Assembly (NCBI GenBank): GCA_937873655.1
Contig: CALMYQ010000001.1
Location: forward strand, 1-33,319
DNA: 33,319 nucleotides
Source: an uncultured Lewinella sp.
GTDB lineage: Bacteria > Bacteroidota > Bacteroidia > Chitinophagales > Saprospiraceae
Direction: 5' to 3'
This document shows, in pieces, positions 732-19,110 of the stretch (its first letter is position 1; each line of letters starts with the position of its first letter). The notes beneath the pieces were generated by a model. It was not told the origin of the DNA. It saw nothing but the letters and a program-made list of their open reading frames with translations, and made no database searches. Made by a program: the position numbers and the translations under genes.

Positions 732-1808
732 TTATTTAGTCCGGGCAAAGGCCTTCTCTCCTTCCGGTTTTAACCCGTAACGAACCCAGAATGCGGCGTG
801 CATGAGCCTGACCATCTGATCCTTGGGATGGTTTTTTTGTATTTTGTCATAGACTTCGGCAGCGGCATGATACCAGTCCTTTTGTTCCAGGGCGATGGCA
901 CTCATCAATCCGCGTAACGATTCCGGTCCACGCTTGTAAATAGCGCTATTTTCCACGCGCTTCATCACTTCTGCCGTTTCATTTGGGCTGCCCATTTCAA
1001 AAGTCAGGGTATTTGATTTCTGATCTGCAGCGCCCTTAACCGAAACATTCCATTGGTAAAAGGCTCCTTCTTTCAATCCTGCAGCGATCGGCTCGAGGGT
1101 CCAGGAGGTATCCCTGGTTGTTGTTTCCTTTACCGTTTGACCGGCTTCATCCTGGATCCGGATATAAAATTCGGGATTACCGGAAGGCTTCGACCAATAA
1201 AGTCTTACAGGCTCTTTACCGTTCACTTTACCAAAAGGCTGGATTGCCCAGATGGTCAGGCCTTTATCGCCAAAACCATCGCCGGAGCCTCCGGTCGGTT
1301 TTACGGTGCCCCAGCCGTCACCCGAACTGCCGGTGGGTTTTACCGTTCCCCAGCCGTCACCCGAGCCGCCCGTTGATTTTACGGTGCCCCAACCATCGCC
1401 TGAGCCGCCCGTGGATTTTACGGTGCCCCATGCGTCGTCGGAATTATTGGAGTTGGCGGCCAGATCAACAGCCGCCATAACGTAGGTTCCAAAAGTCAAG
1501 GCAAAATCGAGGTCTACCATGTTTTCGCCTTCCGGAAATTGGCTCGCCAGGGGTACGGATTGCTTCCCTTCCAACTGACGAAAATGGCCGTTATGGAACA
1601 GGACGACCTGGTTCTTTTTTTTGAGCTGAAGGCTGCCGCCTCTCCTCAAAACAGCCCCGGTTAGGATTTTGCCCGTCATACCGTCAGCCGAGGTATACTT
1701 GATCTTGCCTTTGGCGGCCACCAATACCACGGGCATTTCCGTTTGGGCCGTTGCAGCAACCGTCATTCCAACCGTCACAACCAATAAGATCAGGTGCTTT
1801 ATCATCAT
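732..1808 (-). CDS. Exported FecR-like/DUF928-like protein with 13-residue DGWGTVK repeats
   Basis: A 358-residue exported protein. Residues 1-22 form a signal peptide ending in TAQ. Residues about 26-90 (VVLVAAKGKIKYTS..., GAVLRRGGSLQL, QVVLFHNGHFRQLEGK) look like a FecR-type beta domain. Residues 125-176 are four exact 13-residue units of the form DGWGTVK(S/P)TG(G/S)SG, probably a flexible linker. Residues about 184-270 form an Ig/FN3-like segment (FYIRIQDEAGQ, YQWNVSV) that by eye recalls DUF928 proteins, which in cyanobacteria occur near CHASE2 and CHAT genes. The C-terminus is a TPR-like helical tail. It is a paralogue of the 3472-4428 product and is the last gene of a leftward cluster, 35 nt after the metallopeptidase gene. 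The start could also be the second Met (1805). Its function is not known; an adaptor or scaffold role is inference. Confidence 0.88.
   Translation of the reverse strand: MMIKHLILLVVTVGMTVAATAQTEMPVVLVAAKGKIKYTSADGMTGKILTGAVLRRGGSLQLKKKNQVVLFHNGHFRQLEGKQSVPLASQFPEGENMVDLDFALTFGTYVMAAVDLAANSNNSDDAWGTVKSTGGSGDGWGTVKSTGGSGDGWGTVKPTGSSGDGWGTVKPTGGSGDGFGDKGLTIWAIQPFGKVNGKEPVRLYWSKPSGNPEFYIRIQDEAGQTVKETTTRDTSWTLEPIAAGLKEGAFYQWNVSVKGAADQKSNTLTFEMGSPNETAEVMKRVENSAIYKRGPESLRGLMSAIALEQKDWYHAAAEVYDKIQKNHPKDQMVRLMHAAFWVRYGLKPEGEKAFARTK
1281..1436 (-). repeat. Four tandem 39-bp units in coding sequence
   Basis: Four in-frame 39-bp units encode residues 125-176 of the FecR-like protein, each translating to D(A/G)WGTVK(S/P)TG(G/S)SG. 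A degenerate fifth start (DGFGDKG) follows. The DNA copies are nearly identical, so the copy number is probably unstable between strains. Changes by whole units would keep the frame. Confidence 0.9.
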
Positions 1809-1843
1809 CTGAAAATTTAGTGACTAACCGGAATTATGAACCT

Positions 1844-3475
1844 TCATTCAGGGGATTTGCGATATGCCCCCCAGGCCGATACCAGGCCTTTTTCATCCAG
1901 TTGAAACAATAAATGCAGGTCGGGATAGACCCAGAAGGCCCGCTTGCCGCCGGCAACAATACGCGGCGGCGCGCCGTAAAGGTTCCGCACCTCTCCGGAA
2001 TCGGACCCGACGTGAATGCCTTGCCGGGTCATATCCGAACACCCCTGACCGCATACCTGAGCAACCGTGTAATGGCTGTCGTCAACATAATGAACCCATA
2101 CCTTCGATCCGGGGAATTGCTTCACCCCGCAAGTGATTTTAGGCTGAACCTTAACCTCCTTGTCTACCCCGGGGTTGAGCATAAACACATCGATGGAGAC
2201 ATTGTCTATCTTTTCCCGGGCAATCTCGCCTGCCGTTTTAGGCCTTTGTCTTGGTTTGCCCGACAGGGTTTCAAGGTTGATCGCTGCCGAAATGCTTCCC
2301 TTTTCCCGGGCGGACGTCAACTGGGCCTCCGCCTGTACCGAGTCCTTTTGCAACGCCGACATGACCCCTTTCAAGGCCAGGAAATCAGGAAGGTCCTGCC
2401 CCTCATTGGCCTTTTTCCCTTTTGACAGCCAGTAACCGGCATCTGCCCATTCACCCTGCATGACGTACACGCAGGCCATATTGAGATAACCCGGCAGATA
2501 GTCCGGATCGAGCGAAATGGCAACTTCAAATTGGTTAAGGGCCTCTTTCATCAATTCCTCCCGCATTTTGATCCGGTCGGCTTGCATGCCCTTCAGGTTG
2601 TACAGCCTGGATTCCGGGTCCGGTTCCAGCGGCAGGACGTAGGGCATTTCGGTCATGCTGAAGAGGTCAAGGGCGGCCATTGCCAGGTTCACCCCGGCAT
2701 TGCTGTGGATCTCGCGGCTTTGAAAATCGCGGAGGATAAAGCGGTAGTAGTCGGCTGCCGATTCGTAATTCTGCAGCAAGGTCAGGTAACCGGCCGTTTC
2801 GAATACCACCTGCAATTCCTTCAATTTTTCGGCCGCATTCACGGAGATCTGCACGCGCTCGTCCAGGGCGGGATACCCCGGAAGTTTTTCCGTCAGCCCG
2901 TAGTTTGTGTAAATCTCTTTCAGCAAACGGGGCAACATCCCGTAAACCTTATACCCCGCCGACAGGGCCAGGAATCCGCCCAGGTAATCCGCCTGGGTTT
3001 CCTGCCGGATCTTTTCATCCAGCTGACCGATCCGCCGCGCTGCATCCAGTTCCTTGTTGTCGTTGACAAAACTCTGGGCCCAGTCGTGTTTTTCGAAATA
3101 GTGGGTCAGCTCATGGCCGAGCAGAGCGGCCATGGCGTTGAGGGAATCCGCGCCGAAGCTCACGCAGATATCATAAGCCTTTTCTTCGATCGCGATCCGG
3201 ATATTTTTGGGATCCATGTAAGCGACATTCTGGTTGCCGTTGGTCAGGGCCAGTTCTGGGGGTTGCATGCCGAAGTTGCCCTTTGCCCTGAGCAGATCCT
3301 GATAAACGCCGTTGACCACTTCGTATTTGTATGCGGCGGCGGCCTTTACGCCGATCTTGCCGCGGGGATTGAATACATAGGCGAAAATTTCCTGCGATTG
3401 AGCCGTTGCGACTCCCGCGCAGGCCAACCCGATCAAAAGAGCCAGAATTTTGGGGTAACTCATCGATCTGATCAT
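1844..3475 (-). CDS. Exported M48-like zinc metallopeptidase with TPR repeats
   Basis: A 543-residue protein. Residues 1-26 are a signal peptide (ends ATAQ). The zinc motif HELTH is at 121-125, with the likely third ligand E159 in ETQAD and a following GG, the arrangement of M48-type peptidases (gluzincins). TPR-like helices occupy about 225-400, the clearest being ALNQFEVAISLDPDYLPGYLNMAC. A C-terminal beta-rich domain of about 110 residues (from GVDKEVKVQP) has several Cys (CGQGC). The start codon overlaps the stop of the upstream gene by 4 nt (ATGA, 3472-3475), which implies translational coupling with the FecR-like gene. The 5765-7408 product is a full-length paralogue with HELTH at the same residue number. 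Expected location is the periplasm or outer-membrane face. The substrate is unknown; family assignment is by motif only. Confidence 0.88.
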   Translation of the reverse strand: MIRSMSYPKILALLIGLACAGVATAQSQEIFAYVFNPRGKIGVKAAAAYKYEVVNGVYQDLLRAKGNFGMQPPELALTNGNQNVAYMDPKNIRIAIEEKAYDICVSFGADSLNAMAALLGHELTHYFEKHDWAQSFVNDNKELDAARRIGQLDEKIRQETQADYLGGFLALSAGYKVYGMLPRLLKEIYTNYGLTEKLPGYPALDERVQISVNAAEKLKELQVVFETAGYLTLLQNYESAADYYRFILRDFQSREIHSNAGVNLAMAALDLFSMTEMPYVLPLEPDPESRLYNLKGMQADRIKMREELMKEALNQFEVAISLDPDYLPGYLNMACVYVMQGEWADAGYWLSKGKKANEGQDLPDFLALKGVMSALQKDSVQAEAQLTSAREKGSISAAINLETLSGKPRQRPKTAGEIAREKIDNVSIDVFMLNPGVDKEVKVQPKITCGVKQFPGSKVWVHYVDDSHYTVAQVCGQGCSDMTRQGIHVGSDSGEVRNLYGAPPRIVAGGKRAFWVYPDLHLLFQLDEKGLVSAWGAYRKSPE

Positions 3476-4428
3476 TTTTGTTGAAGGATAGTTTTGGCCT
3501 CATCCAGGCGGTCCATCCGGGACAGGAATGCCGCCCGCGTATCCCGGACCAGCGCATTGCCCGGGAAAGTCTTTGCCGCATCGGCATAAACCCGGTCGGC
3601 CTCGTAAAAGAATTCCGATTCTTCCAGCATAAAGGCTTTCATCAGCTGCTGCTCCAGCGGCGCGGCTTGCCGGTACTCCGGGTTATCCGCCAGCCTGGTC
3701 ATCATCACCTCGGCAGCGCCCGGGTCAAACACGAACTCATGAGCGACCGACCGGGCGGCTTCTCCCTTGCCTGCGCCGGTCAGCACGATCCAGGTGTAAT
3801 TTTCCCCGGGCTCAAGCGCCAGTTGCGAGAGATCAACCTCGAATACCGAATCGCGGACCCATGCCGAGAGGATCTCCTGCTCTTCGGGATTTGACCGGAT
3901 CTTAAACAGAAAAGCCCGGGTTTCTTTCGGCCCGGTCCAGGCAAATCGCACCGTACCGCCGCTCATTTTGCCTTCGAGGTGGCGCCCCGAACGGATCGGA
4001 TGATCCTTCTCCGCGAATCCTTTCACCCCGGCGCGAACCGCCTCCATATACCTGCGGTGGTTTTCTACAAGTTGTTTCTCATTCTGGGTTTCTTTCATGC
4101 TGCCGGAAAGGAAATTCCAGAAACGCCCCGTGAAACTCATGCCCGACCCGGCGGCCGGCTGGTTCAACACTTCGGACAACAGGTAGGTCCGTCCGCCTTT
4201 CAGGGGATAAGTGGCGCCGTTGTACAGCAACCTGGCCAAAGCGCCTGAGGGAAGTTTAATCTTTCCGTTGATCGAAAGCCGCGTGCCCGGATAAACCGAT
4301 TGTGCCTTCCCGTTGCCTGCCGGCAAAAATTGCACTTTCCCGGAGCTTTGCAGCACTACGGCCTCCTCCTGGCCGTACAAAACCGCCCCGGCAAAAAACA
4401 GGCAAACGGCTAACAATAAGTTTCTCAT
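3472..4428 (-). CDS. Exported FecR-like protein with TPR-like C-terminus
   Basis: A 318-residue protein with signal peptide 1-20 (ends LYGQ). Residues about 23-90 form a FecR-like beta domain (VVLQSSGKVQFLPAG, YPGTRLSINGKIKLPSGALARLLYNG). An Ig/FN3-like segment follows at about 155-240 (VRFAWTGPKETRAFLFKI, NYTWIVLTG), then a helical TPR-like tail (EADRVYADAAKTFPGN). It shares its whole order of domains with the 732-1808 product but lacks the DGWGTVK linker. Its stop overlaps the start of the metallopeptidase gene by 4 nt. No transmembrane segment other than the signal peptide is seen, so it is not a classical FecR anti-sigma regulator of TonB systems. It more likely acts as a periplasmic binding or scaffold protein (inference). 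Confidence 0.87.
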   Translation of the reverse strand: MRNLLLAVCLFFAGAVLYGQEEAVVLQSSGKVQFLPAGNGKAQSVYPGTRLSINGKIKLPSGALARLLYNGATYPLKGGRTYLLSEVLNQPAAGSGMSFTGRFWNFLSGSMKETQNEKQLVENHRRYMEAVRAGVKGFAEKDHPIRSGRHLEGKMSGGTVRFAWTGPKETRAFLFKIRSNPEEQEILSAWVRDSVFEVDLSQLALEPGENYTWIVLTGAGKGEAARSVAHEFVFDPGAAEVMMTRLADNPEYRQAAPLEQQLMKAFMLEESEFFYEADRVYADAAKTFPGNALVRDTRAAFLSRMDRLDEAKTILQQK

Positions 4429-4473: not shown

Positions 4474-5685
4474 TTACCCGGATTTGTTCAATTTGAATAT
4501 TTTCGGCAATTTATTGATCCAGGCCTGGTTTCGGCTGCTTGAAAAAGCTTCATAGCTCAATAATACGTCAAAATAAAGTGCAAGCGCCAAAAGCCCCGCG
4601 GTAAAATCCCATTTCAGCCGAAACCAGTAGAACAGCAGAGAGATCAAGAAAAACAGCAGGGCAAATTCCGCCACCTGCAAGGTCCGCGTAATCGGGTGGT
4701 AAAGCCGCGGATACCGTTCGTGCACCCACTCCAGCAAAGCGACATTTCCATAACAAACCAGGATGGCCAGCAAAAGGCTCAACCAGGCGGGAATCTTATT
4801 GATGAATTTGCCGTCGAGAATCATCCGGATGATATTGGCGTGGATGATAATTCCGTACATATCGGGCTCCGATCTGCCGGAATAACGCACATTCAACGGG
4901 GTGTGGAATTTATCCAGGGCGGGGCACTCGCTGGTGGGGTCGCCGTTGTAACCCATCAGGATGATCTTACCGGCGAGGAGCGGTTTAAGGTCGATTGTCG
5001 TGTCCAGGATGGCTTCGGGTTCGAACTGGACAAAATTGTCTTCGGTTGAAGAGAAGTGGATGCGTTCGAGCTCATTTCTCCGTCTCAGCATTTTTTCGAC
5101 CTTTTCCGGCGCGTATTGTTCCGCAATCCGGGTGGCGAAGCTGTATGAGACGCCTTCTCCGGTCCGTTCCGCGGGGCTGAAAAACCGGATCGTGCGGACC
5201 TCCATGCTCGGAAAATTGGCATAGCCCAGGCGGGCGTAGTTGCTGAAAAAGGTATCCACACCGGTCTCCGACTGGAAGCGCTTCAGGTCATCCCGGTAAT
5301 TTTCCAGGGTGGACGCCAGCACCACATTGCCCGAATGTTGGATGGCCGCCTGCAAAGCGGAATCGATCGCCGCGTTTTGCCGCCCGGCGTAAAGCACATC
5401 GATCCCGATGACCTTGGGTTGAGCTTGGCTGATCCTTTTCAGCATGGCGGCCATCTGGGCCCGGTCGGGCTGGCCGGTATTGATCAGCACGATCCGGTCA
5501 TCCAGCCGGACTTCCTGGTTGCGCAACCTGGAATAGACGATATCCGTCATATCGAAATCCTTGATGCCCTGGGTAAAGGGGTCGAGGAAATGGATATTCA
5601 GCCGGATCAGGGACAGTACGCCGATGACCAGGAACACGAAAACGGTAACCACCGCGGGGTAAGGCCTGATGAGTTTTTTCAACAT
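4474..5685 (-). CDS. CHASE2-domain membrane protein without output domain
   Basis: A 403-residue protein. One transmembrane helix (about 9-28) precedes an extracytoplasmic CHASE2 sensor of about 260 residues. Visible CHASE2 hallmarks are the DDRIVLINTG strand, KVIGIDVLYAGR, GKIILMGYNGDPT and PDMYGIIIHANIIRMIL. Three further transmembrane helices follow (about 300-322, 335-357 and 360-380), then a basic tail of about 20 residues. CHASE2 usually feeds a kinase, adenylate cyclase or other output domain. None is present, so the signal would have to pass to a partner protein. It lies between the two metallopeptidase/FecR-like units, 45 nt before the FecR-like gene, and is probably cotranscribed. 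Family identity is confident; role in the cluster is inference. Confidence 0.9.
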   Translation of the reverse strand: MLKKLIRPYPAVVTVFVFLVIGVLSLIRLNIHFLDPFTQGIKDFDMTDIVYSRLRNQEVRLDDRIVLINTGQPDRAQMAAMLKRISQAQPKVIGIDVLYAGRQNAAIDSALQAAIQHSGNVVLASTLENYRDDLKRFQSETGVDTFFSNYARLGYANFPSMEVRTIRFFSPAERTGEGVSYSFATRIAEQYAPEKVEKMLRRRNELERIHFSSTEDNFVQFEPEAILDTTIDLKPLLAGKIILMGYNGDPTSECPALDKFHTPLNVRYSGRSEPDMYGIIIHANIIRMILDGKFINKIPAWLSLLLAILVCYGNVALLEWVHERYPRLYHPITRTLQVAEFALLFFLISLLFYWFRLKWDFTAGLLALALYFDVLLSYEAFSSSRNQAWINKLPKIFKLNKSG

Positions 5686-5691
5686 GGATCC

Positions 5692-5764: not shown

Positions 5765-7408
5765 TCACAACTTGAGATAATTCACCCAACGTTCCAGTTT
5801 TCCTCCTTTACCCAGGATAAAGATCATTTTGGAATAGACCATGATCTGGCCGAGCGGTGTTTCAATGGTTCGCTGGGGTTTCTGGTAGGCGGTGATAATA
5901 TCATTGCCGGTAGCGCCGGGGCCGATATTCCGGGCTGTATTGCCTTTATAGCCGGATGAAGTAATTTGAAACAATGTATTGACCCCGGTCTGGCCGTTCT
6001 GGCTGACGAAGAGCCTGGAACCCGGTCCCTGGTCGGGATTTTGGTGAAAGAAGAGGTCTTTATTCAATGTAATGGACAATTTCTGATTAATCCGGACATT
6101 GTCTGCAATACCGGTCAGGGATTGATCGTCGATTTTTTCGGTTTTGGGTAAGCCGGCGAATGAAACGGGTTCCGTCTCCGGCGGGGTATTATTGAGGATA
6201 TCCAGGTTGATGGCGGCCAGGTTGCTGTTCATCGCCGCAGCCGTTTTGAACGTTTGGGTCGCCTTGGCAGTATTGCCGGCTTCTGCATCCAGTATCCCCG
6301 TCAGCACATCCACATCCAGTACGGTCTTATCGTAATGCCCCCTTACGGCAGCAGGCCGTGCTTCTTCTTCTGCGTAGAATGCTGCGCGTTTGGCATCCCC
6401 CATAATAGCGTACACGCAAGCCTTATTGAGGTAGGCCGGTGCATAGTTGGGGTCCATGCTGATGGCCGCTTCGAAATGGAGGAGGGCCTGGTGCAACAAC
6501 TGATTGCGGGTATCCACCATACCGGATCCTTTGCCGGCAGAAGATTCCAGGTCGAGTTCAATCGGGTAGCGGTACTTTAATTCTCCTTCCTTGAAATATT
6601 GAAGGGCGTCCAGCACAGCGGTCACGCCAAGGTTGTTATAAATCTCCCGGCTCTGGTATTCCATCAAAACATAGCGATAATACTGGTAGGCTTCCTGATA
6701 ACTGCCGATAGCCGTCAGCAGGTTGGCCATGTCGAAAACGTCCACCAGCCTTTTAAGTTTTTGAGCCGACCGCCTGGTGAGTTCCTCCCGGTCCTGAAGG
6801 GAAGGGTATCCTGCGATTTTATCCGGCAGCTTGTAGGCGTCGTACAAACCTTTGATCACTTGGGGGCCTTTATCAAACAATCCGTAACCGGCCGAATAGG
6901 CAAGAAATCCGCCCAGATAATCAGCTTCTGTTTCATTGGCCGCATCATCCTGGAGGCTGTCCAGTTTGATCCCGATCGGCAGGTCTTTATAATCGGCTGC
7001 AAATCCACGACGCCAGGCGTGCTTTTCATAGTAATGGGTCAGTTCATGTCCCAGCAAAAAGGCTATCGCGCCATCGGGATCCGGGCCGAAACCTTTGCAT
7101 ACATCGTATGCCTTTTCTTCCAGTTTGATCTCCAGCGCATCGTAATTCATACCGGCAACCTGCGAGGTCTCCTTCCGCATGACAAATGCCGGTACGGGAA
7201 ACCGGTAGTCGCCCCGGGCTGCTACGAGCGTATTGTAAATTTTCAAGGCATCCTTATATTTTGTTGAATCCACCACGCCCGACCCTTTGGTCAGCGCGCC
7301 GCCAGGCTTACGGACCAAAGGGAGGGTGCCGAAGCTTCGATCCTGAGCCGAGACCCGGAGCGTCATCAGAAATGCAAGAAAGATGAATAATACAGGGTTG
7401 TTTTTCAT
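5765..7408 (-). CDS. Exported M48-like zinc metallopeptidase with TPR repeats (paralogue)
   Basis: A 547-residue protein with signal peptide 1-22 (ends VSAQ). HELTH is at 121-125 and the probable third zinc ligand is E159 (ETEADYLGGF), exactly matching the 1844-3475 paralogue. TPR-like helices run at about 225-420, including LHFEAAISMDPNYAPAYLNKAC. A beta-rich C-terminal region of about 120 residues differs from that of the paralogue and lacks its Cys pairs. It is the first gene of the leftward five-gene cluster and divergent from 7510. It is expected to be periplasmic or surface-exposed. The shared architecture suggests duplication of an ancestral gene followed by change of the C-terminal, possibly substrate-selecting, part (inference). 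Confidence 0.88.
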   Translation of the reverse strand: MKNNPVLFIFLAFLMTLRVSAQDRSFGTLPLVRKPGGALTKGSGVVDSTKYKDALKIYNTLVAARGDYRFPVPAFVMRKETSQVAGMNYDALEIKLEEKAYDVCKGFGPDPDGAIAFLLGHELTHYYEKHAWRRGFAADYKDLPIGIKLDSLQDDAANETEADYLGGFLAYSAGYGLFDKGPQVIKGLYDAYKLPDKIAGYPSLQDREELTRRSAQKLKRLVDVFDMANLLTAIGSYQEAYQYYRYVLMEYQSREIYNNLGVTAVLDALQYFKEGELKYRYPIELDLESSAGKGSGMVDTRNQLLHQALLHFEAAISMDPNYAPAYLNKACVYAIMGDAKRAAFYAEEEARPAAVRGHYDKTVLDVDVLTGILDAEAGNTAKATQTFKTAAAMNSNLAAINLDILNNTPPETEPVSFAGLPKTEKIDDQSLTGIADNVRINQKLSITLNKDLFFHQNPDQGPGSRLFVSQNGQTGVNTLFQITSSGYKGNTARNIGPGATGNDIITAYQKPQRTIETPLGQIMVYSKMIFILGKGGKLERWVNYLKL

Positions 7409-9126: not shown

Positions 9127-9594
9127 TCATTTTTCCACCCACGTCAACACAGCGGCGTTTCCTTCGGATGCGACTACTTTCCCTTCTCCGGCCAGGACGA
9201 GGTTTTCGATCCCGCCGTCGGTCGTATTTTTCATCAGGCCGCCGATCCTGATCACGCCTTGATTGGTCACTGTTCCGATCAAGGACAGGCCGGTCCCACC
9301 CTGGCGTTCCGGGACAACAGTCATCACCCCTTCGGGCAGAACCTCCAACCGCGCGCCGCCTTCGATTTCCAGGCCGGCTATCTCCGGCAAAACGGACCGG
9401 ATCACCGGATAAACCTCATGGCCAACATGGGCGATCAGCACATAATCATTTGCTCCCGGGACCTTTTTATCCAGCCAGTTGCGGGCTTCCATCCAGTCGG
9501 TTTCCCGGCCCGGCGCGCCGCCGATCCATACGGACTGGCCGGTTACAGATAAACAGCAAATGGCGAATACAAGGACAACGAGCATCTTTTTCAT
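9127..9594 (-). CDS. Small exported beta-rich protein
   Basis: I place the start at the internal Met (9594, MKKMLVVLVFAICCLSVTGQ), because it gives a compact 20-residue signal peptide. The longer frame from 9615 adds seven polar residues. The mature protein has about 135 residues and begins WIGGAPGRETDW.EARNWLDKKVP, a pattern common at the start of beta-helical, polysaccharide-related secreted proteins of Bacteroidota. Repeated short hydrophobic strands follow (LEIEGGARLEVLP, LIGTVTNQGVIRIGG). It has no C-terminal T9SS domain and is far shorter than the usual beta-helix enzymes, so it may be a stand-alone fragment or small binding protein. Function unknown. Confidence 0.75.
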   Translation of the reverse strand: MKKMLVVLVFAICCLSVTGQSVWIGGAPGRETDWMEARNWLDKKVPGANDYVLIAHVGHEVYPVIRSVLPEIAGLEIEGGARLEVLPEGVMTVVPERQGGTGLSLIGTVTNQGVIRIGGLMKNTTDGGIENLVLAGEGKVVASEGNAAVLTWVEK

Positions 9595-9968: not shown

Positions 9969-12900
9969 TCACAACTTCCCGGAGACTTTTTCCACAATCG
10001 CCTCTACCAGTCCCTTCATATCCGTTTTTTTGCCGGACACCCGGAATTCCCCCAGGTCGTCTTTCCCTTTGAACAACCGGCCCTGCACCGCCACCTCATC
10101 GCCGCTGACCTTGTAGCGCCCCTTGATGGAATAGGCATTTTCATACTCCTTCACATCCACGTAGATCAACTCGGCCTGCGTACCGCGCGCAGTGATGGTC
10201 CGGAAATAATCCGCCAGGGCATCGGTCAGGCCGATCACATCGTCGAACTTGTCTTCGTCCTGGAAGTTGTTCCGGATAAAAACCGGTTTAGGTTGGGCCA
10301 GCGGGATCTTCACCCGGTCATTGACAATACCGATGTCAAAACTGCCCCCGCCTGCCGGAAAGGCCAGAACAGGCGCCTGAACCTGCCGGATATTTTTGGC
10401 CAGCACGGGCACCTCATCCCTTGCGTACTGGAACAGCGTCATCACGTCCACCCGCTTGTCGGCCGTCAGGGCCAGGCCGCTCATACCCTGCAACAGGCTG
10501 TAGGTGAGCAGGCCCTGGCCGTACTGGCTGGCCTCAAAGCTCACTTTATCGCCGGCGGCGCCGGTGAGGATGAACATGCCTGTGCGGTCTTTCATCCGGT
10601 CGAGTGCGCGGATCTGCGAAGAATTCAGCTCGCGAGCGCCGATATTTGCCAGGGCTTCCACGGCTTTGCCCGAGTTGCAGGCATCCAGGATCATAACCTG
10701 TTTCTGGGCCGGTATGGCCGTCAGCCACCGGGTCAGGTCTTCGGAGGAAACGGTATAGTTATTCCTGACCTCATCGTCCTTCAGATCGGCGCTGGCGATG
10801 TCCTTGGTCAGGTAGTAGAACTGGCTCTTTTCCGCGCTGCCGTAGGTGAGGCCGTGCCCCGAAAAATAAACGACCAGGATATCCGTGGGTTTGGCCTGTG
10901 CGGCGAAGGCGCTGAACGCATCGGCGATGTTCTTTCTGGAGGAAATACCGGCTGGCGTTTTCGCATCGGTGGTGAGCAGGCGCACATGGACGCGGTTTTC
11001 GAACAGGGCTTTCCCCGCATCGCCGATCGCCTGCGCCATCTGGGTTGCGTCGTGGTCGGGAAAGCGCAGATCGAGCAGGTCGCCGCTGTAATCCGAGGTG
11101 CCGACCAGGATGGCGAACAGTTCCGGCCTGGGTGAATTCAGCGGTTGCAGGTTGGTGTTGGTGTCGTTGCCCCTGCCGGTTGAAAATGCCGGCGTAAAAC
11201 CAATTTCGTACGCCGGGCTTTTAAGCCAGCCCGCACTGTTGTAAGCCCGGAGCGCCAGCGTATTGACGCCCGGCAGGTAGTATTTATCGTAAGCCTTGAG
11301 GTCGAGGTCCAGCGCAGTGTTGCCGTCCGGATTGATGTTTTCGACCACCTCTTTCCCATTGATAAAAAAGCTGAGTTTGCCCATGCCGCCTGCGCGCCGT
11401 GTCAACCGGATGTTGAGTTGATCCGCCTGAACAACGGCTTCGATCGCGGGGTAGAGCGCAACGTCCGCCAGTGCCGACACATCCCGCAACGATTCGCCGT
11501 TCACAATTTTTTGCAACAAACCGGGCTCATAGTACCGTTCCTTGAGCTGTTCAAGTTCGACTACCTCCACCCCAACGACGTAGTGCATCAGGTTCATGGC
11601 GCCTGGAGATGCGTCGAATAGCCCCGAGGGCGTGGTGACCACCCAATCCGAAGAATCGATGGCAACCAGGGTAGCCAGTTCTTCACCGGTTGATGTCCGC
11701 CAGAGTTTAACCTTGTTGTCCCAGCCCCCTGAAACAAAAAACTGCCCATCGGGGGAGAACGCGATCGCATCGGCCTCGTGCTCAGCCGAGGTGTGCAGCA
11801 ATTTGCCCGTTTGCCGGTCCCATGTTCTCAGGGTCTTATCGGCGCCGGCGGTCAGGATCAGTTTTCCATCCGGAGAAAAGGCCACTTTCCAGATCTGATC
11901 GGTATGTCCTTCCAGCGTATGAACGAGCTTTCCGTCGCGATCCCAGAGGTTGGCGGTTTTCCCCCAGCCTCCGGCCAGTATTTGCTGGCCGTCAGGAGAA
12001 AATACGGCGTCAGTTATTCTTAATCCATCGCCCGGGAGCGTCTTCAGGATGGTCCGGGTCTTCAGATCCCAAAGCAGGACATTTCCATGCCAATCGCCGG
12101 ACAAAAGGGTCTTGCCGCCGTCATTCGGGGAAAAATCCACTGCTGAAATCCCCCCCAGCGCCATAAAATCCGCCGGCCCCAATTCCCGCTGCATCTGGTC
12201 TGCCTGATCCGAAGGCGGTGCGGATTCTTTAGGTTTTTCCAGCTTATACAAAAGGGTTCCCTTCGCGCGGTCCCAGATCTCAATATCATCATTTTCGGTT
12301 CCGAAAGCCAGGTATTTTCCACCCGATGGATCATCCGGCCCGGGCGGGGAAATGGCCATCGAAAGTGAAACGCCATTGGCGAGTTGCGGCTCAAAAACCT
12401 CAACCGGATTTCCTGTGGCATAATCCCGTCTTGCAGCCCAATAATTCAGCCGACCCGTGATCAGACCCGGATTGGCTTCATTCCCGGTAAAGAAAAATCC
12501 GGCGACCGGCTGAAACAAATGGCCCAGATAATCCGGCGTTTCGGCAAAGGTCTGCATGGAAGCCCCGGCGAGGTTCCATCGCTTGCAATGACCGATATCC
12601 GTTCCCACCAGCAGACTTTTTCCGGCATCAACCGTTGAAAAAGCCAAAGCGGATATGCTTTCGGAATGGCTGCCGAAGGCCTGAACGGCATCTCCGCTCA
12701 ACGTAACAATGCGGGCTTCGCCGCCGGCCAGCAGAAGATATTTGCCTGAAGCGGGTTCGCCGGGTCCGGGCGGGATAAACCTGGCGCTGAACAATCCGCG
12801 GTCCGTCTGAAAATCATGGATCATTTCTCCCGAATTGCGATCTCTGATCTGGATAGCGCCCCATTCGCTTCCGGTGAGGACCAGTTTTCCATCGGGCGAA

Positions 12901-13712
12901 AAAGCGACTGTTACGATGAAATCGCCAGTACCCTTAAAAGACCTGATTTCCGCCCCGGAATCCCGATCCCACAATTTGGCGGCGCCGTCCAGGCTGCCCG
13001 TCAGTATTTGTTTCCCCCCGTCATCCGGCGAGAAAGCGACGGAAGTTACCCGGTCATTATGGGGTTGAAAAGTCCGGATTTCTCTTCCAGTCGCCCGATC
13101 CCATAACTTCGCGGTTCCCTGACCTTGCTCGATCATTTTCGGGGCCCCCATGACAGATGCAGCATCGGGATTGGGGACGTTCCTTCCATCCCAGCTTCCG
13201 GTCAGGACAAACCGGCCGTCGGGTGAGAAAGCGACGCTGGTCACTGTACTGGAATGCCCCGTCAGGGTTTGGACGACTTTGCCGGTACGCCCGTTCCAGA
13301 TGCCGGCGGTGCTGTCGCCGGTTCCGGCCGCCAGCCACTCGCCGTCGGGAGAAAAGGCGATTGAGTTGATGGCCCCGGCCTCTTCGCAGGATTGGATTTC
13401 CTTTCCGTAAAGGTCCCATAATTTCACGCTCTGGTTTTGGGCGCCGGTGGCGATGAACTGGCCGTCGGGCGAAAAAGCGACGGCGGTTACCTCGGTATCG
13501 CCGACTTTAAAGGTCTGGATCTCCAGTCCGGACCGGCTCCAGAGTTTGGCGGTTCCATCACGGCTACCGGTCAGGATCTGCGTTCCATCCGGTGAAACGG
13601 CTGCTGCGTTGACTCCGGATGTATGCCCGATCGGCACGACCAACCGGGGCGCCTGGGCATGCAGCTGGATCGTCAGGATGAGCGCGGAGATCAGGTATTG
13701 AATAGATCGCAT
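9969..13712 (-). CDS. WD40-repeat caspase-like protease (paralogue A)
   Basis: Start taken at 13712 (MRSIQYLISALILTIQLHAQ, a signal peptide matching that of the paralogue). 13724 is an alternative, and the frame open to 13802 adds an unlikely charged N-terminus. The 1247-residue product has 14 WD40-like blades (about 25-690), several degenerate or with insertions (for example FIPPGPGEPASGKYLL). Then comes the conserved TTPSGLFDASPGAMN linker, an Ig-like segment, and a caspase-fold (peptidase C14) domain starting at ELFAILVGTSDY. The catalytic dyad is H953 in YFSGHG and C1012 in LDACNSG. A C-terminal domain of about 110 residues (ADYFRTITARG, YSIKGRY, GRLFKGK) recalls TolB-N/LpoB-like modules (inference). 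The signal peptide implies export, unusual for a bacterial WD40-caspase. Likely role: propeller-gated proteolysis; substrate unknown. Confidence 0.92.
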   Translation of the reverse strand: MRSIQYLISALILTIQLHAQAPRLVVPIGHTSGVNAAAVSPDGTQILTGSRDGTAKLWSRSGLEIQTFKVGDTEVTAVAFSPDGQFIATGAQNQSVKLWDLYGKEIQSCEEAGAINSIAFSPDGEWLAAGTGDSTAGIWNGRTGKVVQTLTGHSSTVTSVAFSPDGRFVLTGSWDGRNVPNPDAASVMGAPKMIEQGQGTAKLWDRATGREIRTFQPHNDRVTSVAFSPDDGGKQILTGSLDGAAKLWDRDSGAEIRSFKGTGDFIVTVAFSPDGKLVLTGSEWGAIQIRDRNSGEMIHDFQTDRGLFSARFIPPGPGEPASGKYLLLAGGEARIVTLSGDAVQAFGSHSESISALAFSTVDAGKSLLVGTDIGHCKRWNLAGASMQTFAETPDYLGHLFQPVAGFFFTGNEANPGLITGRLNYWAARRDYATGNPVEVFEPQLANGVSLSMAISPPGPDDPSGGKYLAFGTENDDIEIWDRAKGTLLYKLEKPKESAPPSDQADQMQRELGPADFMALGGISAVDFSPNDGGKTLLSGDWHGNVLLWDLKTRTILKTLPGDGLRITDAVFSPDGQQILAGGWGKTANLWDRDGKLVHTLEGHTDQIWKVAFSPDGKLILTAGADKTLRTWDRQTGKLLHTSAEHEADAIAFSPDGQFFVSGGWDNKVKLWRTSTGEELATLVAIDSSDWVVTTPSGLFDASPGAMNLMHYVVGVEVVELEQLKERYYEPGLLQKIVNGESLRDVSALADVALYPAIEAVVQADQLNIRLTRRAGGMGKLSFFINGKEVVENINPDGNTALDLDLKAYDKYYLPGVNTLALRAYNSAGWLKSPAYEIGFTPAFSTGRGNDTNTNLQPLNSPRPELFAILVGTSDYSGDLLDLRFPDHDATQMAQAIGDAGKALFENRVHVRLLTTDAKTPAGISSRKNIADAFSAFAAQAKPTDILVVYFSGHGLTYGSAEKSQFYYLTKDIASADLKDDEVRNNYTVSSEDLTRWLTAIPAQKQVMILDACNSGKAVEALANIGARELNSSQIRALDRMKDRTGMFILTGAAGDKVSFEASQYGQGLLTYSLLQGMSGLALTADKRVDVMTLFQYARDEVPVLAKNIRQVQAPVLAFPAGGGSFDIGIVNDRVKIPLAQPKPVFIRNNFQDEDKFDDVIGLTDALADYFRTITARGTQAELIYVDVKEYENAYSIKGRYKVSGDEVAVQGRLFKGKDDLGEFRVSGKKTDMKGLVEAIVEKVSGKL

Positions 13713-13778
13713 AGTCTGAATCATTAGTTTTTTTATGTCCGCCTTTTCGCAAAACAAACCCGGGTTTACCTTCTGCGC

Positions 13779-13830
13779 ATGCCCAAAATTGAGCCTATTC
13801 AAATTTGTTTTTGGATGAAGCCGGACTTTC
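13779..13830. repeat. Degenerate 50-nt repeat, copy 2 (pair at 9775)
   Basis: Begins CATGCCCAAAATTGAG and continues through TTTTTGGATGAAGCCGG, aligning gap-free with 9775-9827. It lies 67 nt upstream of the chosen start of paralogue A and overlaps the rejected long N-terminal frame. The remaining intergenic sequence (13713-13961) shows no gene. Confidence 0.5.
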
Positions 13831-13961: not shown

Positions 13962-16900
13962 TCACAGCATCCCGGAGACTTTTTCCACGATCGCCTCCAC
14001 CAGCCCCGTCATATCGGCCTTTTTACCCGTTACCTGGAATTCACCCAGGGAGGTCTTTCCCTTGAACAGGCGGCCGCGGACTTCCACGGCATTCCCTTTC
14101 ACCGCATAGCGCCCTTTGATGGAATAGGCGTTCTCGTAATCGTTGACATCCACATAAATAAGCTCGGCCTGTGCCCCGCGGGCGGTGATGGTCCGGAAAT
14201 AATCCGCCAGTGCGCCGGTCAGGCCCAGCACGTCGTCAAAGCTTTCTTCGTCCTGGAACACATTCCGGATAAAGACCGGTTTGGGCTGGGCCAGCGGGAT
14301 CTTCACCCCGCCGTCCACGATGCCGATATCAAAACTGCTGCCGTCTACCGGGAAGGCCAGAATGGGGATCTGCACCTGCCGGATGCTTTTGGCCAGTACA
14401 GGCACTTCATCCCGGGCGTATTGGAACAGGGTCATCACGTCCACCCGCTTGTCGGCGGTCAGCGCCAGGCCGCTCATGCCCTGCAGCAGGCTGTAGGTGA
14501 GCAATCCCTGGCCGTACTGGCTGGCTTCGTAGCTCACCTTGTCGGCGGCAGCGCCCGTGAGGATGTACATGCCGGTGCGGTCTTTCATCCGGTCGAGCGC
14601 CCGGATCTGGGAGGGGTTGAGGTCGCGCGCACCGATGGCGGCCATGGCCTCCACCACCTTGCCGGAGTTGCAGGCATCCAGGATCATGACCTGCTTGAGC
14701 GCCGGGGTCGCGGTCAGCCATTTGGTCAGGTCTTCTGAAGAAACGGTGGCATTTTTCCGGACGTTCGGGTCCGACAGATCGGCCCTGGCGATATCTTTGG
14801 TCAGGTAGTAGAACTGACTTTTTTCCGCCGCACCGTAGGTGATCCCGTGGCCGGAGAAATAGACCAGCAGGATGTCGGCGGGTTTGGCCTGGTCGGCAAA
14901 GGCTTTGAAGGCCTTTTCAATATTGGCCTTGCTGGCGATATCTTCCGGGCTTTTACCGGCGGTTGAGAGTAATTTCACGTGTACGCGGTCTTCAAAAAGG
15001 CGGCTTCCCGCTGCCTGCATCGCCTTGGCGAAAGCCGCGGCATCCAGGTCCGGAAACCGGAGGTCGAGCTGATCCCCGGCATAGTCCGAAGTGCCGATGG
15101 AGATCACATAAAGGTGCGGTTTGGCTTTGCTCAGCGACTGAAGCTGACCGGTATTGCCGGTCGTACCCGTACCCTTTCCGGCCGCAACCGGATCATAAGG
15201 CAATTCATAGGCAGGGCTTTTCAGCCACTCGTCCTTGTTGTAAGCCCGCAAGCCGACCGTGTTGGATTCGACCACACAATATTTTTCGTAGGGTTTCAGG
15301 TCAATGGTGATCTCTGTTTTGCGGTCGGGGTTGGCGTCCGCTTCCACCTCTTTGCCGTTGACGAACAGGCTGAGCTTGCCCAGGCCACCGCCTTGTTCCG
15401 TCAATCTGACTGTGAGCTTGTCTTCTTTGATCTCCGCTTCGATCTTTGGATACAGCGCCACATTATCCAGGGCAGCTACATCCCTGACCTCCACTTTGCT
15501 GATGCCGAGCAGGCGGGCCAGGAGACCGGGTTCGTAGTATCGTTCCTTCAACTGGTCCAGTTCGACCGGTTCGAGGCCCACCACGAAATACATCAGGTTC
15601 ATTGCGCCGGGGGAGGCATCGAACAGACCGGAGGGTGTGGTTACCACCCAGTCGTCCGTGCCGACCGAAACCAGGGTAGCGACTTCCTGCCCTGTACCGG
15701 CATCCCAGACCTTGATCGTATGATCGAAGCTGGCGGAAAGGATGAATTTGCCGTCCGGAGAAAAGGCGACCGAGGAAATGGTATTGTTATGGCCGCGAAG
15801 GTTATGGATCTCTTTACCCTGCAGATCCCACAAGCGCACGGTATTGTCCCAGCTTCCGGTCACTACCCGCCGGCCGTCCGGGGAAAAGGCTGCACAGGAA
15901 ACCACGTCGTCCGTATGCCCTTTGAATACCGTCAGTTCACGGCCTTGCAGATCCCAGAGTCTGGCGGTTTTGTCGCTGCCGGCAGAAAGGATGCGGCTGC
16001 CGTCGGGAGAAAACACCAATTCCCGGATCATTGCGGTATGCCCGTTGAATCGCTGGATTACCTGCCCGGAAAGGTCCATCAGATTAAAGGAATAGCCCTC
16101 TCCCGTAGTGAGCAGGTGATTGCCGTCGGGGGAAAACACCGGATTGAAGACGTAATCTTTAAATACCAATGAATTCAATTCCCGGCCTTCCAGGTCCCAA
16201 AATTGGAGGGTTTTCTGACCGAGGGTCAGGACCTGTTGACCGTCGGGTGAAAAAATAGCCGAACCGAACCCGAACCTGGGCTGAGGCAAGGAGCGGGTTT
16301 CCTGCCCCTGCAGGTTCCACAGGCGGACAGACCCATCTGCACTGCTGGTCAGCACCCGTTGACCGTCCGCTGAAAACTCAGCCCGGCCTACCCAATTCGT
16401 ATGTCCCTTGAAGGCGAGTACGGACCGGTTTTCCACGCTCCATAGCTTTGCCAGGTGATCATACCCGGCCGATAAGATCTGTTGGCCGTCGGGGGAAAAG
16501 TAAGCGGAGGAGACCTCTCCCGTATGGCCCTGAAAGGAGCGAACCTCGCGACCCTGGTCATCCCATAATCTGGCGGACCGGTCGGCGCTGCCCGTCAATA
16601 AAAATTTTCCGTCGGGGGAATAAGCTAATGCGTTCAACCTATCGGAATGGCATTTCATCGATCGGAGCTCATTCCCTTGCAGGTCCCATATCTTTACCAC
16701 TCCGTTTCTGCCGCCGGCTGCCAGTTGTTGGCCATCGGGAGAAAAAACAACAGCGCTCACCCGGAAAAGGTGGTCGCCGACGCCAAAGGTGCGGACCAGT
16801 TCCCCGGACAGGTTCCACATCCGAACCGTGTCGCTGACGGCCGTCAGGATATGTTCTCCGTCAGGTGAGAAAGCGACACTACCCAGTTCGAAGGTCTCTT

Positions 16901-17495
16901 TATATTCCCGGATCAGGCTTCCGTTCAGATCCCACAACCTCGCAGTGAAGTCATCACTGCCGGTCAGGATTTTCTTTCCGTCGGGTGAAAAGGCCACTGA
17001 GGTCACAAAAGATTTATGCCCTTTGAACCGGTGGATCTCCTTACCGGTCAGATCTGATAAGATTGCATTATTATCACCGGTACCGGTCAGTATGTACTTC
17101 CCGTCCGGGGAAAAAGCAACGGAAGCTACGCTCGAGAAATCTCCTTTGAAGGTGCGGATCTCTCTGCCGGTGAGTTCCCATAATTTTGCGGTTTTGTCTG
17201 CACTGCCGGTCAGAACGTACTTCCCGTCCGGGGAAAAAGCCACGGAGCTGACCAGGGATCCGTGCCCTTTGAAGGTGACCAGTTCCCTGCCCTCCATATC
17301 CCAAAGTATAGCGACCCCTTTGCTGCCGATGAGGAATTCGCCGCTGCCGGTCAGCACATATTTGCCGTCCGGGGAAAAAGCAACGGCATTGATGCTGTGG
17401 GTACTTCCGACAGGAACGACCAGCCTGGGTGTCTGGGCCTGGATCAATGAGCTTGCGATCAAAAAAAGAAAAACGATTCGAAACAGATTATTCAT
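13962..17495 (-). CDS. WD40-repeat caspase-like protease (paralogue B)
   Basis: A 1177-residue protein. Signal peptide 1-21 (MNNLFRIVFLFLIASSLIQAQ). Fourteen WD40 blades (about 28-610), each marked by FSPDG followed by LWDLQG or a similar motif; most end in GH. Fourteen blades fit two seven-bladed propellers. The TTPSGLFDASPGAMN linker and an Ig-like segment lead to a caspase-fold domain from LYVISIGTSDY, with H883 (YFSGHG) and C942 (LDACNSG) 59 residues apart as in paralogue A. The C-terminal domain is nearly the same as in A. The blades here are more regular than in A, so B may be nearer the ancestral form. It is divergent from the sigma-factor gene across 185 nt, which makes it a candidate target of that sigma factor (inference). 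Confidence 0.93.
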   Translation of the reverse strand: MNNLFRIVFLFLIASSLIQAQTPRLVVPVGSTHSINAVAFSPDGKYVLTGSGEFLIGSKGVAILWDMEGRELVTFKGHGSLVSSVAFSPDGKYVLTGSADKTAKLWELTGREIRTFKGDFSSVASVAFSPDGKYILTGTGDNNAILSDLTGKEIHRFKGHKSFVTSVAFSPDGKKILTGSDDFTARLWDLNGSLIREYKETFELGSVAFSPDGEHILTAVSDTVRMWNLSGELVRTFGVGDHLFRVSAVVFSPDGQQLAAGGRNGVVKIWDLQGNELRSMKCHSDRLNALAYSPDGKFLLTGSADRSARLWDDQGREVRSFQGHTGEVSSAYFSPDGQQILSAGYDHLAKLWSVENRSVLAFKGHTNWVGRAEFSADGQRVLTSSADGSVRLWNLQGQETRSLPQPRFGFGSAIFSPDGQQVLTLGQKTLQFWDLEGRELNSLVFKDYVFNPVFSPDGNHLLTTGEGYSFNLMDLSGQVIQRFNGHTAMIRELVFSPDGSRILSAGSDKTARLWDLQGRELTVFKGHTDDVVSCAAFSPDGRRVVTGSWDNTVRLWDLQGKEIHNLRGHNNTISSVAFSPDGKFILSASFDHTIKVWDAGTGQEVATLVSVGTDDWVVTTPSGLFDASPGAMNLMYFVVGLEPVELDQLKERYYEPGLLARLLGISKVEVRDVAALDNVALYPKIEAEIKEDKLTVRLTEQGGGLGKLSLFVNGKEVEADANPDRKTEITIDLKPYEKYCVVESNTVGLRAYNKDEWLKSPAYELPYDPVAAGKGTGTTGNTGQLQSLSKAKPHLYVISIGTSDYAGDQLDLRFPDLDAAAFAKAMQAAGSRLFEDRVHVKLLSTAGKSPEDIASKANIEKAFKAFADQAKPADILLVYFSGHGITYGAAEKSQFYYLTKDIARADLSDPNVRKNATVSSEDLTKWLTATPALKQVMILDACNSGKVVEAMAAIGARDLNPSQIRALDRMKDRTGMYILTGAAADKVSYEASQYGQGLLTYSLLQGMSGLALTADKRVDVMTLFQYARDEVPVLAKSIRQVQIPILAFPVDGSSFDIGIVDGGVKIPLAQPKPVFIRNVFQDEESFDDVLGLTGALADYFRTITARGAQAELIYVDVNDYENAYSIKGRYAVKGNAVEVRGRLFKGKTSLGEFQVTGKKADMTGLVEAIVEKVSGML

Positions 17496-17629
17496 ATTGC
17501 CGGATTGTTGAGTTTTAGCTGAAGATGAGCGGCACTGATCAGCAAAAGGGAGATCTGGAAGGACTAAAGCATTTTCCGGGTAAATAATTTAGCAACCGGA
17601 TAATTGGTTACCCAAATTTCAGTAAAGAT

Positions 17630-17661
17630 TTGAAAAAAAGATGAAAAATCCGCTACTTTAA
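17630..17661 (+). promoter_or_regulatory. Candidate promoter for the sigma/anti-sigma pair
   Basis: TTG at 17630-17632 (within GATTTG) is followed after 21 nt by TACTTTAA (17654-17661), a partial match to TAnnTTTG. The leader to the ATG at 17681 would be about 15 nt. No clear promoter was found for the divergent caspase gene in the same 185-nt interval. Confidence 0.3.
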
Positions 17662-17680
17662 GCCCGGAATACTGAAAAAG

Positions 17681-18253
17681 ATGCCGAACACCGATGACCA
17701 GCACCTTTCAGCCGTACGCTCGGGTGATTTGAACGGGCTGCGGGCTGTTTACCGGGAATTTCTTCCCCGCATTTCCAGGTTGATCACCCGGAACGGCGGT
17801 TCCCACGACGATGCCCTCGATATTTTTCAGGACGCGCTGGTCGTATTGTTCGAAAAGACCAGAGACGGCAGTTTTCAGTTGACCAGCTCCTTTTCCACCC
17901 TCATATACGGGGTATGCCGGAATTTGTGGGGCAACCGGCTGCAAAAAAAATCGCGGACGGAGGTAACCCTTGCCGACGACTTCAAATTCAGTGATGATTC
18001 CGCTAATCTGGAACACGCTATTGTGGAAGAGGAGAAAAATCGCCTTTTCTGGGATGCCTTCCGAAAACTCGGCGCTGATTGCCAGCAACTGCTCCGGCTT
18101 TTTTTTGAAAAAAAGACCATGGAGGAGATTGCTGAAGTCATGCAGTTCGGCAGTGTAGGATACGCCAAAAAGCGCAAATTCCTCTGTAAGGAAAACTTAC
18201 TGGAAGCCGTCAAGGCCGATCCCAGATTTAATGACTATCAGAACGCAGGCTAA
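17681..18253 (+). CDS. ECF-type RNA polymerase sigma factor
   Basis: A 190-residue protein, the usual ECF length. Region 2 covers about 20-92 (DDALDIFQDALVVLFEK, SFSTLIYGVCRNLWGNRLQKKSR), with the core-binding and -10-reading helices recognisable. Region 4 covers about 125-180, with a helix-turn-helix around KTMEEIAEVMQFGSVGYAKKRKFLCKE. The RNLW...K and KKRKFLCKE features are those of a Bacteroidota sigma group that I recall occurring near CHAT/caspase genes (recollection). The next gene, an anti-sigma candidate, starts 2 nt after its stop, so the pair is an operon. It probably directs transcription of nearby genes; targets not known. Confidence 0.9.
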   Translation: MPNTDDQHLSAVRSGDLNGLRAVYREFLPRISRLITRNGGSHDDALDIFQDALVVLFEKTRDGSFQLTSSFSTLIYGVCRNLWGNRLQKKSRTEVTLADDFKFSDDSANLEHAIVEEEKNRLFWDAFRKLGADCQQLLRLFFEKKTMEEIAEVMQFGSVGYAKKRKFLCKENLLEAVKADPRFNDYQNAG

Positions 18254-18255
18254 GC

Positions 18256-19110
18256 ATGGAAAAGGACCGCTTATACGAACAGATTGAAGCCTACCTGGCA
18301 GGCGCCCTGCCCGGGGAGGAACGCCGTTCGTTTGAGCAGCAACTGGCAGCGGATCCTGAGCTTGCGGCAGAAGTCGCCCTGCACCGGCAGGCGGCAAAAG
18401 CGCTGGGAGATCCGGAGAAGCTGGCTTTCCGCCAAAAAATCGCCGATCTGGCCCAGGAATTTTCGGGCCCTCAAGCCCGGAAAGGACCCAATTTCCGCAG
18501 ATGGCTGCCGTTCGTCATCACTGGCTTGTTCATCGCACTTTGGTGGTGGTACGACCTCAGCCACCTGGCGCCGGAAAAACAAGAGACCTCCTCGGTCATC
18601 CAGCCGCAGGCGCCGGATTCCCTGAATGCACCGGAAACAGCGGCCGAAACCGGGGACACGTTGATTACCTTGCCTCCTGAAACGCCCGTACAGGAGCAAC
18701 CTGTCCGGCGGGATCCCAAACAAGCCTTTGCCGTCAATCCGGAACTGGAGCATCTCCTCACCCAGGCTCCGGACGCCTACCTGAAGGTGGATACGACCTT
18801 GTTGGAGACCTTCCCCGCTGCGGGCGGCCGGAATATCCGGTTCAACGGCCGGCTGCAAACCTCGGTGGATCCCCTGCCCGGCTTCGAGCTCGCGGTACTG
18901 AACAACAGTGCGCGGGTGGTGTCCCGCCTGCCGGTCAAAGCGGAGGAGATCCCCGATGCGGATCCCAAATTCGCCTTTGCCGCCAGGAAGAATTATGCGC
19001 TGGAAGTGGACGAGGTCGTCAAATTGCAACCCGGGCTTTACTACCTGAGGCTGTCGGTGAAAGGCGGGACCCAATCGCTTTGGGCGGGAAAATTCCGGGC
19101 GGACCGGTAG
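18256..19110 (+). CDS. Membrane-anchored anti-sigma-like protein
   Basis: A 284-residue protein. The cytoplasmic N-terminus (YEQIEAYLAGALPGEERRSFEQQLAADPEL) matches the helical sigma-binding start of many Bacteroidota anti-sigma factors. It lacks the HxxxCxxC zinc motif. One transmembrane helix lies at about 83-99 (LPFVITGLFIALWWWYD). The periplasmic part has a Pro/Glu/Thr-rich linker (about 105-160) and a C-terminal beta domain (about 190-284, from RNIRFNGRLQ to LWAGKFRADR) with no recognised family. Position 2 nt after the sigma gene supports the role. The periplasmic domain would be the sensing end (inference). Confidence 0.82.
   Translation: MEKDRLYEQIEAYLAGALPGEERRSFEQQLAADPELAAEVALHRQAAKALGDPEKLAFRQKIADLAQEFSGPQARKGPNFRRWLPFVITGLFIALWWWYDLSHLAPEKQETSSVIQPQAPDSLNAPETAAETGDTLITLPPETPVQEQPVRRDPKQAFAVNPELEHLLTQAPDAYLKVDTTLLETFPAAGGRNIRFNGRLQTSVDPLPGFELAVLNNSARVVSRLPVKAEEIPDADPKFAFAARKNYALEVDEVVKLQPGLYYLRLSVKGGTQSLWAGKFRADR

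Follow-up and report, generated by a model that had tools for sequence, protein, structure and literature searches.

Recurrent linkage of a CHASE2 sensor gene with FecR-like, M48-like and predicted exported caspase genes in Bacteroidota: a candidate system for envelope proteolysis

In a 33,319-bp stretch of DNA from an uncultured Lewinella sp. (hereafter the window; CALMYQ010000001.1, 55% G+C, a single contig of an 8.07-Mb genome), a CHASE2 gene lies among genes for two FecR-like proteins, two M48-like peptidases with TPR repeats, two WD40-caspases and a protein designated PLUS1, all of them predicted to be exported. The initial annotation of the window had proposed an envelope module of this kind, together with a sigma/anti-sigma pair, and had called for a check of gene neighbourhoods in related genomes. 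We find that CHASE2, FecR-like, M48, PLUS1 and caspase genes, with the sigma/anti-sigma pair as the exception, are linked beyond chance, and that this linkage recurs across Saprospiria and in further Bacteroidota and Ignavibacteria. Because of this linkage and of two natural fusions of a FecR-like domain to a caspase, the CHASE2 protein, its FecR-like partner and the exported caspases likely form one envelope-cutting system. We put at roughly even the chance that the locus represents a widespread CHASE2 sensor system in its Bacteroidota form, controlling predicted exported caspases and M48 peptidases, with proteolysis in the envelope in response to a signal.

A scan of species genomes with a CHASE2 alignment yielded 166 relatives, with matches in Neolewinella aquimaris DSM 105137, Lewinella sp. 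JB7 and Lacibacter, among others; one relative is plasmid-borne. The best 80 were kept with up to 10 kb of flanking DNA, and counts refer to the 79 loci with a readable CHASE2 open reading frame (ORF), L018 having been dropped since its CHASE2 was not among the kept ORFs. The Saprospiraceae-type group (27 loci, 26 counted) was drawn from titles and similarity rank after the neighbourhoods had been viewed, and includes three loci not titled Saprospiraceae or Lewinella (L025, L030, L031). In 71 of the 79 loci (26/26 Saprospiraceae-type, 45/53 others), CHASE2 is followed by a FecR-like gene at most 600 bp away on the same strand; anywhere in the flanks, such a gene is found in 26/26 and 48/53, respectively. 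The corresponding counts are 26/26 and 0/53 for M48, 19/26 and 1/53 for PLUS1, and 21/26 and 18/53 for caspases; four of the five caspase-less Saprospiraceae-type loci end early at contig ends, on one or both sides. Relative to a background of 2.04 caspases per Mb (129 matches in 63.3 Mb), determined with a profile from these loci in nine module-bearing genomes themselves and applied also to the 53 other loci, caspases are enriched 43-fold in the 377.8 kb of Saprospiraceae-type flanks (33 found, 0.77 expected) and 14-fold in the flanks of the others (24 found, 1.7 expected). Their arrangement differs by lineage: an upstream run in Lewinella types, a downstream convergent TPR-caspase, an upstream WD40-caspase with M48, a divergent TPR-caspase in Chitinophagaceae (eight loci with this one arrangement, close to one event), a downstream Ig-caspase in Ignavibacteria, and a caspase gene adjacent to and upstream of CHASE2 on the same strand, at 2 bp in L081 and 50 bp in L090. 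De novo clustering of the neighbours in an 85-locus set, which includes at least three duplicates, returned CHASE2 (84 loci), FecR-like (77), caspase-TPR (36), M48 (31) and PLUS1 (24) as the most frequent families, all others being found at 12 loci or fewer.

A survey of 60 genomes, that of the window included, overlaps with these loci (L020/G014, L033/G026, L034/G006, L036/G029, L041/G019). Six have a CHASE2 match and nine have full-length FecR-like/DUF928 proteins (E<1e-20). Strong M48 matches (E<1e-100) occur in ten, with all nine FecR-like genomes among them (Fisher 7e-10), and PLUS1 (E<1e-80) occurs in eight, six of which are common with the FecR-like set (Fisher 4e-5). Caspases are present at the FecR-like locus in eight of the nine, the contig of the ninth being 7.5 kb. 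Three of these nine genomes (G001, G018 and G020) lack a CHASE2 match, yet have M48, FecR-like and caspase genes together; in G018, a single strand carries WD40-caspase, M48 and FecR-like genes with spacings of 29 and 49 bp.

The two exported WD40-caspases of the initial annotation are borne out, with export predicted from signal-peptide-like starts. Both have a Peptidase_C14 domain (caspase 1, 10365-11117, 59.6 bits; caspase 2, 14358-15098, 65.5 bits; cut-off 21.4) behind WD40 repeats, with intact SGHG and DACNSG motifs. Of the 62 caspases found, the 39 that were aligned all have the catalytic His and Cys, and 54 of 57 caspase ORFs have a signal-peptide-like start, two of the three misses being truncated at the 5′ end. 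A 731-residue ORF immediately after CHASE2 in L040 joins a FecR-like domain (residues 98-233, E 4.5e-31) to a caspase (residues 248-467 by our own profile; Pfam C14, 1.6e-16) and, at its C-terminus, matches an outer-membrane barrel family below the cut-off. A like fusion in G339, 62 bp after CHASE2 and 59% identical to that of L040, has a barrel match over the cut-off (28.2 versus 27). The L040 fusion is the only one in the 85-locus set, and that of G339 is the only full-length match among 395 genomes of the phylum, with at most three candidates scored per genome. In G235 (L142:7024-10017), a FecR-like gene is followed 12 bp later by one for a caspase, predicted to be exported, that carries a fused FGE-sulfatase domain. 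The caspase gene adjoining CHASE2 in L090 (4488-6509; Ignavibacteriales) encodes a CsgG-Ig-caspase protein.

The proposed CHASE2 sensor of the window proved to be a clear PF05226 member (7e-23, 81.9 bits versus a cut-off of 26.3) and the sole PF05226 match in its genome. Known CHASE2 receptors bear a kinase, cyclase or CHAT domain. No other Pfam family was found in the CHASE2 ORF of the window, whose hydropathy peaks begin at residues 11, 300, 335 and 363, and in the family at large the tail past the last hydrophobic segment is short (median 25 residues; 60 or fewer in 74 of 81 ORFs, maximum 82). The CHASE2 protein of these loci thus shows no cytoplasmic output domain.

The two FecR-like proteins of the initial annotation exist as genes, fecR1 and fecR2, the latter retrieved by our profile at 4.6e-30, but FecR as a Pfam assignment does not hold: PF04773 matches three other genes in the genome of the window and neither of these, and was not among the 25 families listed (of 58 matched) for 47 FecR-like members. 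Alignment of the FecR-like domain with the genome's own FecR proteins in hhalign, with only three sequences, gave a probability of 1.3%. We therefore keep "FecR-like" as a label only. The second half of the protein, by comparison, matches DUF928 in profile-profile alignment (95.7%, E 8.6e-9, 148 columns; 89.3% using only four DUF928-annotated proteins, with 1.0% for a negative control), which supports its homology to the cyanobacterial family rather than membership by cut-off, given that PF06051 matches eight of the 47 members (best 7.4e-5) and neither of those in the window. This half also shares the MtxA fold, with the Big/Fn3 and TPR parts of the MtxA C-terminal domain encoded beside a CHASE2 gene. 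In fecR2, a 39-bp tandem repeat (3.7 copies, 1285-1430) encodes 13-residue units between the beta domain and the Fn3 part.

Two exported HExxH-TPR peptidases had also been proposed. Both m48a and m48b have HELTH at residue 121, followed at residue 159 by ETQAD in the former and ETEAD in the latter, although against Pfam M48 (PF01435) m48a stays just below the cut-off (19.5 versus 20.3 bits) and m48b is not listed. The M48-like proteins match a solved M48 structure, 3c37, with E 0.0011, HExxH is present in 37 of 37 M48 proteins of the loci, and 36 of the 37 M48 genes of CHASE2 loci directly adjoin a FecR-like, caspase or CHASE2 gene. PLUS1 has no Pfam match; by eye, its C-terminal stretch in our alignment looks like an outer-membrane barrel. 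A second pair of M48 and PLUS1 genes exists elsewhere in the same genome (L102:8972-12311; G000:C244); the 19.9 kb retrieved there contain neither a CHASE2 nor a FecR-like gene. At three further loci (L104:2755-7919, L105:4211-9171, L107:9303-14100), a protein of 1,190-1,340 residues, seemingly without a signal peptide, is encoded beside a predicted exported protein of 380-410 residues that resembles the TPR part of the M48 family, with WD40-caspase-type or caspase genes nearby. For the small predicted exported protein encoded between PLUS1 and caspase 1, a homologue adjoins a WD40-caspase in the module locus of G020 (2e-25), and an iterated search of the 85-locus set matched only the window's own.

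The idea that the locus is a Bacteroidota counterpart of cyanobacterial CHAT-CHASE2/DUF928/CHAT loci is upheld by gene order and by the DUF928 homology, once the sigma pair and the Pfam FecR assignment are corrected. In both, a predicted exported DUF928-type protein comes after CHASE2, caspase-fold proteases are encoded nearby, and some loci add WD40 proteins. Twelve of 41 plasmid records that matched with a Leptolyngbya CHAT-CHASE2 were examined: a DUF928-type protein follows CHASE2 in eight of the 11 loci examined by profile, is nearby in one and was not found in two (these proteins had gone into the profile itself; the three without a label are recovered by a model built on six independent proteins), and further CHAT proteins are listed in nine of the 12 records. 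In one record a gene is listed as sigma-70, but its product shows no sigma domain in Pfam; at two other loci, the gene at the same place has a weak match to sigma region 4 (E 0.0035 and 0.0093). That classical caspases replace CHAT is broadly correct, but at least one cyanobacterial locus (L094) has a caspase besides CHAT and some Bacteroidota members also match CHAT weakly. The L094 CHASE2 bears CHAT, whereas no output domain was found on that of the window, which is accordingly not a member of the CHAT-CHASE2 system; moreover, cyanobacterial DUF928 proteins come without the FecR-like N-terminal domain to which the Bacteroidota DUF928-like half is fused, and the proteases are predicted to be exported in Bacteroidota.

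Comparison with other systems follows the accessible parts of the sources cited. A WD40/CHASE2/DUF928 cluster is reported for Nostoc punctiforme (PMC5587647). The mtxA gene of magnetotactic bacteria also adjoins a CHASE2 gene, but there the neighbour goes with adenylate cyclase, and the accessible account describes no caspases (PMC4439547). The Burkholderia BiofilmReg operon likewise pairs an exported FecR-domain protein with a CHASE2 receptor, but consists of LysM-FecR, a CHASE2-histidine kinase and a response regulator, with no operon proteases described there (PMC5192318); a system of this type was rejected for the window, where CHASE2 is the only Pfam domain of its short-tailed protein and no response regulator is present among the 13 proteins scanned. 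A Campylobacterota CHASE2-cyclase/FecR/TPR/phosphodiesterase cluster differs in its cyclic AMP output (PMC9239204). Trichodesmium metacaspase-CHASE2 similarly ties a caspase to CHASE2, but as one protein, whose caspase part the authors assign to the cytoplasm (PMC3501461). No description of exported caspases with CHASE2 in Bacteroidota was found in a search that covered mainly openly accessible papers. A Sphingobium plasmid (L095:2612-12660) has in a row genes for CHAT, a CHASE2-cyclase, a FecR-like small exported protein (hidden Markov model E 6e-4) and ShlB/FhaC two-partner secretion.

Related sensor pairs in other phyla feed a CHASE2-attached kinase, cyclase or CHAT, whereas in the present loci the output seems to have shifted across the inner membrane to its outer face. 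CHASE2 shows no cytoplasmic output domain and its output would therefore likely run through the exported proteases; with partner, caspases and M48 all predicted to be exported, proteolysis outside the inner membrane would be the simplest one. Inner-membrane CHASE2 and the exported FecR-like/Fn3/TPR partner may thus control the exported caspases and M48 peptidases, a sensed signal then setting off proteolysis in the periplasm or at the outer membrane. The partner could bind the periplasmic domain of CHASE2, and the complex could hold or recruit the caspase through WD40 or TPR repeats, while the M48 peptidase might process or clear the caspase or its products and PLUS1, or the barrel of the fusion, might anchor the complex to the outer membrane, with envelope remodelling or regulated death as a putative end result. 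An extracytoplasmic caspase cascade, in which CHASE2 and FecR-like/DUF928 switch on periplasmic or outer-membrane-bound caspases directly and this proteolysis is the sensor's output, appears possible, at somewhat less than an even chance.

Several points weigh against a single CHASE2-controlled proteolytic system. Caspases are missing from the available flanks of 40 of the 79 loci (35/53 outside the Saprospiraceae-type group), many with full 10-kb flanks, and the CHASE2 pair can therefore work without a nearby caspase; the formal P values for caspase enrichment (1e-41 for Saprospiraceae-type and 2e-19 for other loci) overstate the case because they treat as independent loci that are not. M48 and PLUS1 are nearly confined to the Saprospiraceae-type group, and some M48 relatives sit away from the module. 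The fusions are the sole sign of contact between partner and caspase, and the FecR-like domain in that of L040 comes without the DUF928-like half. Signal peptides were called by our own hydropathy script and not by a trained predictor, and an output protein encoded elsewhere could bind to the cytoplasmic parts of CHASE2.

The near-universal presence of the CHASE2/FecR-like pair, the many loci without a flanking caspase, and the frequent occurrence of caspases elsewhere in most of these genomes would suit a pair that is the sole functional unit, with caspases, M48 and PLUS1 as separate systems sharing genomic islands. We consider this quite unlikely in view of the enrichment of caspases in both groups of (non-independent) loci, the FecR-like/caspase fusions in two genomes, the caspase-M48-FecR-like run without CHASE2 in G018, the caspase genes just upstream of CHASE2 in L081 and L090, and a neighbour clustering in which no further family came near these counts. 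BepA acts on misassembled outer-membrane proteins, and the M48-TPR peptidase could likewise serve envelope quality control, with CHASE2 sensing stress and the caspases auxiliary and without a role in death. Its predicted export and its presence in every Saprospiraceae-type locus would fit, as would the resemblance, by eye, of PLUS1 to an outer-membrane protein; yet M48 is absent from all 53 other loci while the FecR-like gene stays in 48, and the fusions link FecR-like to caspase, not M48, which makes this explanation rather improbable.

Caspases and CHAT recur in defence systems, and the neighbours of the locus vary between lineages, in line with exported caspases that kill the cell or its attacker upon encounter with phage or predator. 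PADLOC, however, run on nine window proteins (caspase 1 excluded), returned only generic caspase and HEAT/ARM matches, on caspase 2, and a defence role seems very unlikely. It is more doubtful still, to the point of being highly improbable, that the extracytoplasmic function (ECF) sigma factor (TIGR02937, 64 bits, cut-off 42.9) and its anti-sigma-like neighbour (NCBIfam antisigma E, NF052375, 9e-9 but 35.6 bits versus a cut-off of 100) are the transcriptional output, the sigma factor being freed when exported peptidases cleave the anti-sigma. The sigma gene does start 185 bp from caspase 2, three other loci have a sigma gene too, and further ones lie near two M48-family genes elsewhere, but sigma genes are present in only 3/26 Saprospiraceae-type and 0/53 other loci, and in the module-bearing genomes G001 and G020 the sigma orthologues (60-61% identity) lie on contigs other than that of the module. 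Inclusion of this pair in the module, as first annotated, is thus not sustained.

What caspases do in bacteria is an old question without a settled answer, and those described so far are mostly taken to be cytoplasmic. The module considered here offers a receptor, a partner whose fold is partly solved and two natural fusions, within a gene set that is defined and recurs; since these fusions show which parts belong together, a CHASE2-controlled envelope protease system can be tested in cultured strains. The module also joins the poorly understood DUF928, MtxA and CHASE2-associated FecR-type proteins into one picture. If the extracytoplasmic caspase cascade proposed above is true, sensor pairs from four or more phyla (MtxA, LysM-FecR, DUF928) would be one family with exchangeable outputs.

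All ORFs of the initial annotation are present in the window where it had placed them (Table 1). Five genes form a minus-strand run in the order m48b, CHASE2, fecR1, m48a, fecR2, with gaps of 79, 45, -4 and 35 bp; PLUS1 diverges from it, 101 bp apart, and is followed by the two WD40-caspases, oriented like the run, and then by the divergent sigma/anti-sigma pair. As three gene types are paralogous pairs (M48, 34% identity; FecR-like, 26%, fecR2 versus the C-terminal half of fecR1; caspases, 50%), these 19 kb hold fewer distinct families than first listed. Signal-peptide-like starts were found for both FecR-like proteins, both M48 peptidases, both caspases, PLUS1 and the small protein next to it, in agreement with the proposal that nearly all proteases here would have signal peptides.

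Table 1. Features of the window, with positions on the forward strand.
Feature	Position	Strand	Remarks
fecR2, second fecR1-type protein	732..1808	-	13-residue tandem repeat inserted
m48a, M48-like HExxH and TPR peptidase, predicted exported	1844..3475	-	4-bp overlap with fecR1
fecR1, FecR-like beta domain, Fn3 and TPR, MtxA/DUF928 type, predicted exported	3472..4428	-	
CHASE2 protein	4474..5685	-	PF05226
m48b, M48-like HExxH and TPR peptidase, predicted exported	5765..7408	-	First of five-gene run
PLUS1, divergent; signal peptide, coiled middle, barrel-like C-terminal stretch	7510..9075	+	Barrel judged by eye
Small protein encoded between PLUS1 and caspase 1, predicted exported	9127..9615	-	Possible accessory
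WD40-caspase 1	9969..13802	-	Signal peptide when read from the likely true start, near 13724 or 13712
WD40-caspase 2, signal peptide	13962..17495	-	C14, WD40
ECF sigma factor	17681..18253	+	TIGR02937; neighbour, not counted as part of the module
Anti-sigma-like protein	18256..19110	+	NF052375; neighbour, not counted as part of the module

Beyond the sigma/anti-sigma pair, an HYR/T9SS (type IX secretion system) protein at 19569-21797 and an ORF of at least 3,689 residues with 240-bp repeats, which runs off the end of the window (22253-33319, plus strand), suggest a giant surface protein.

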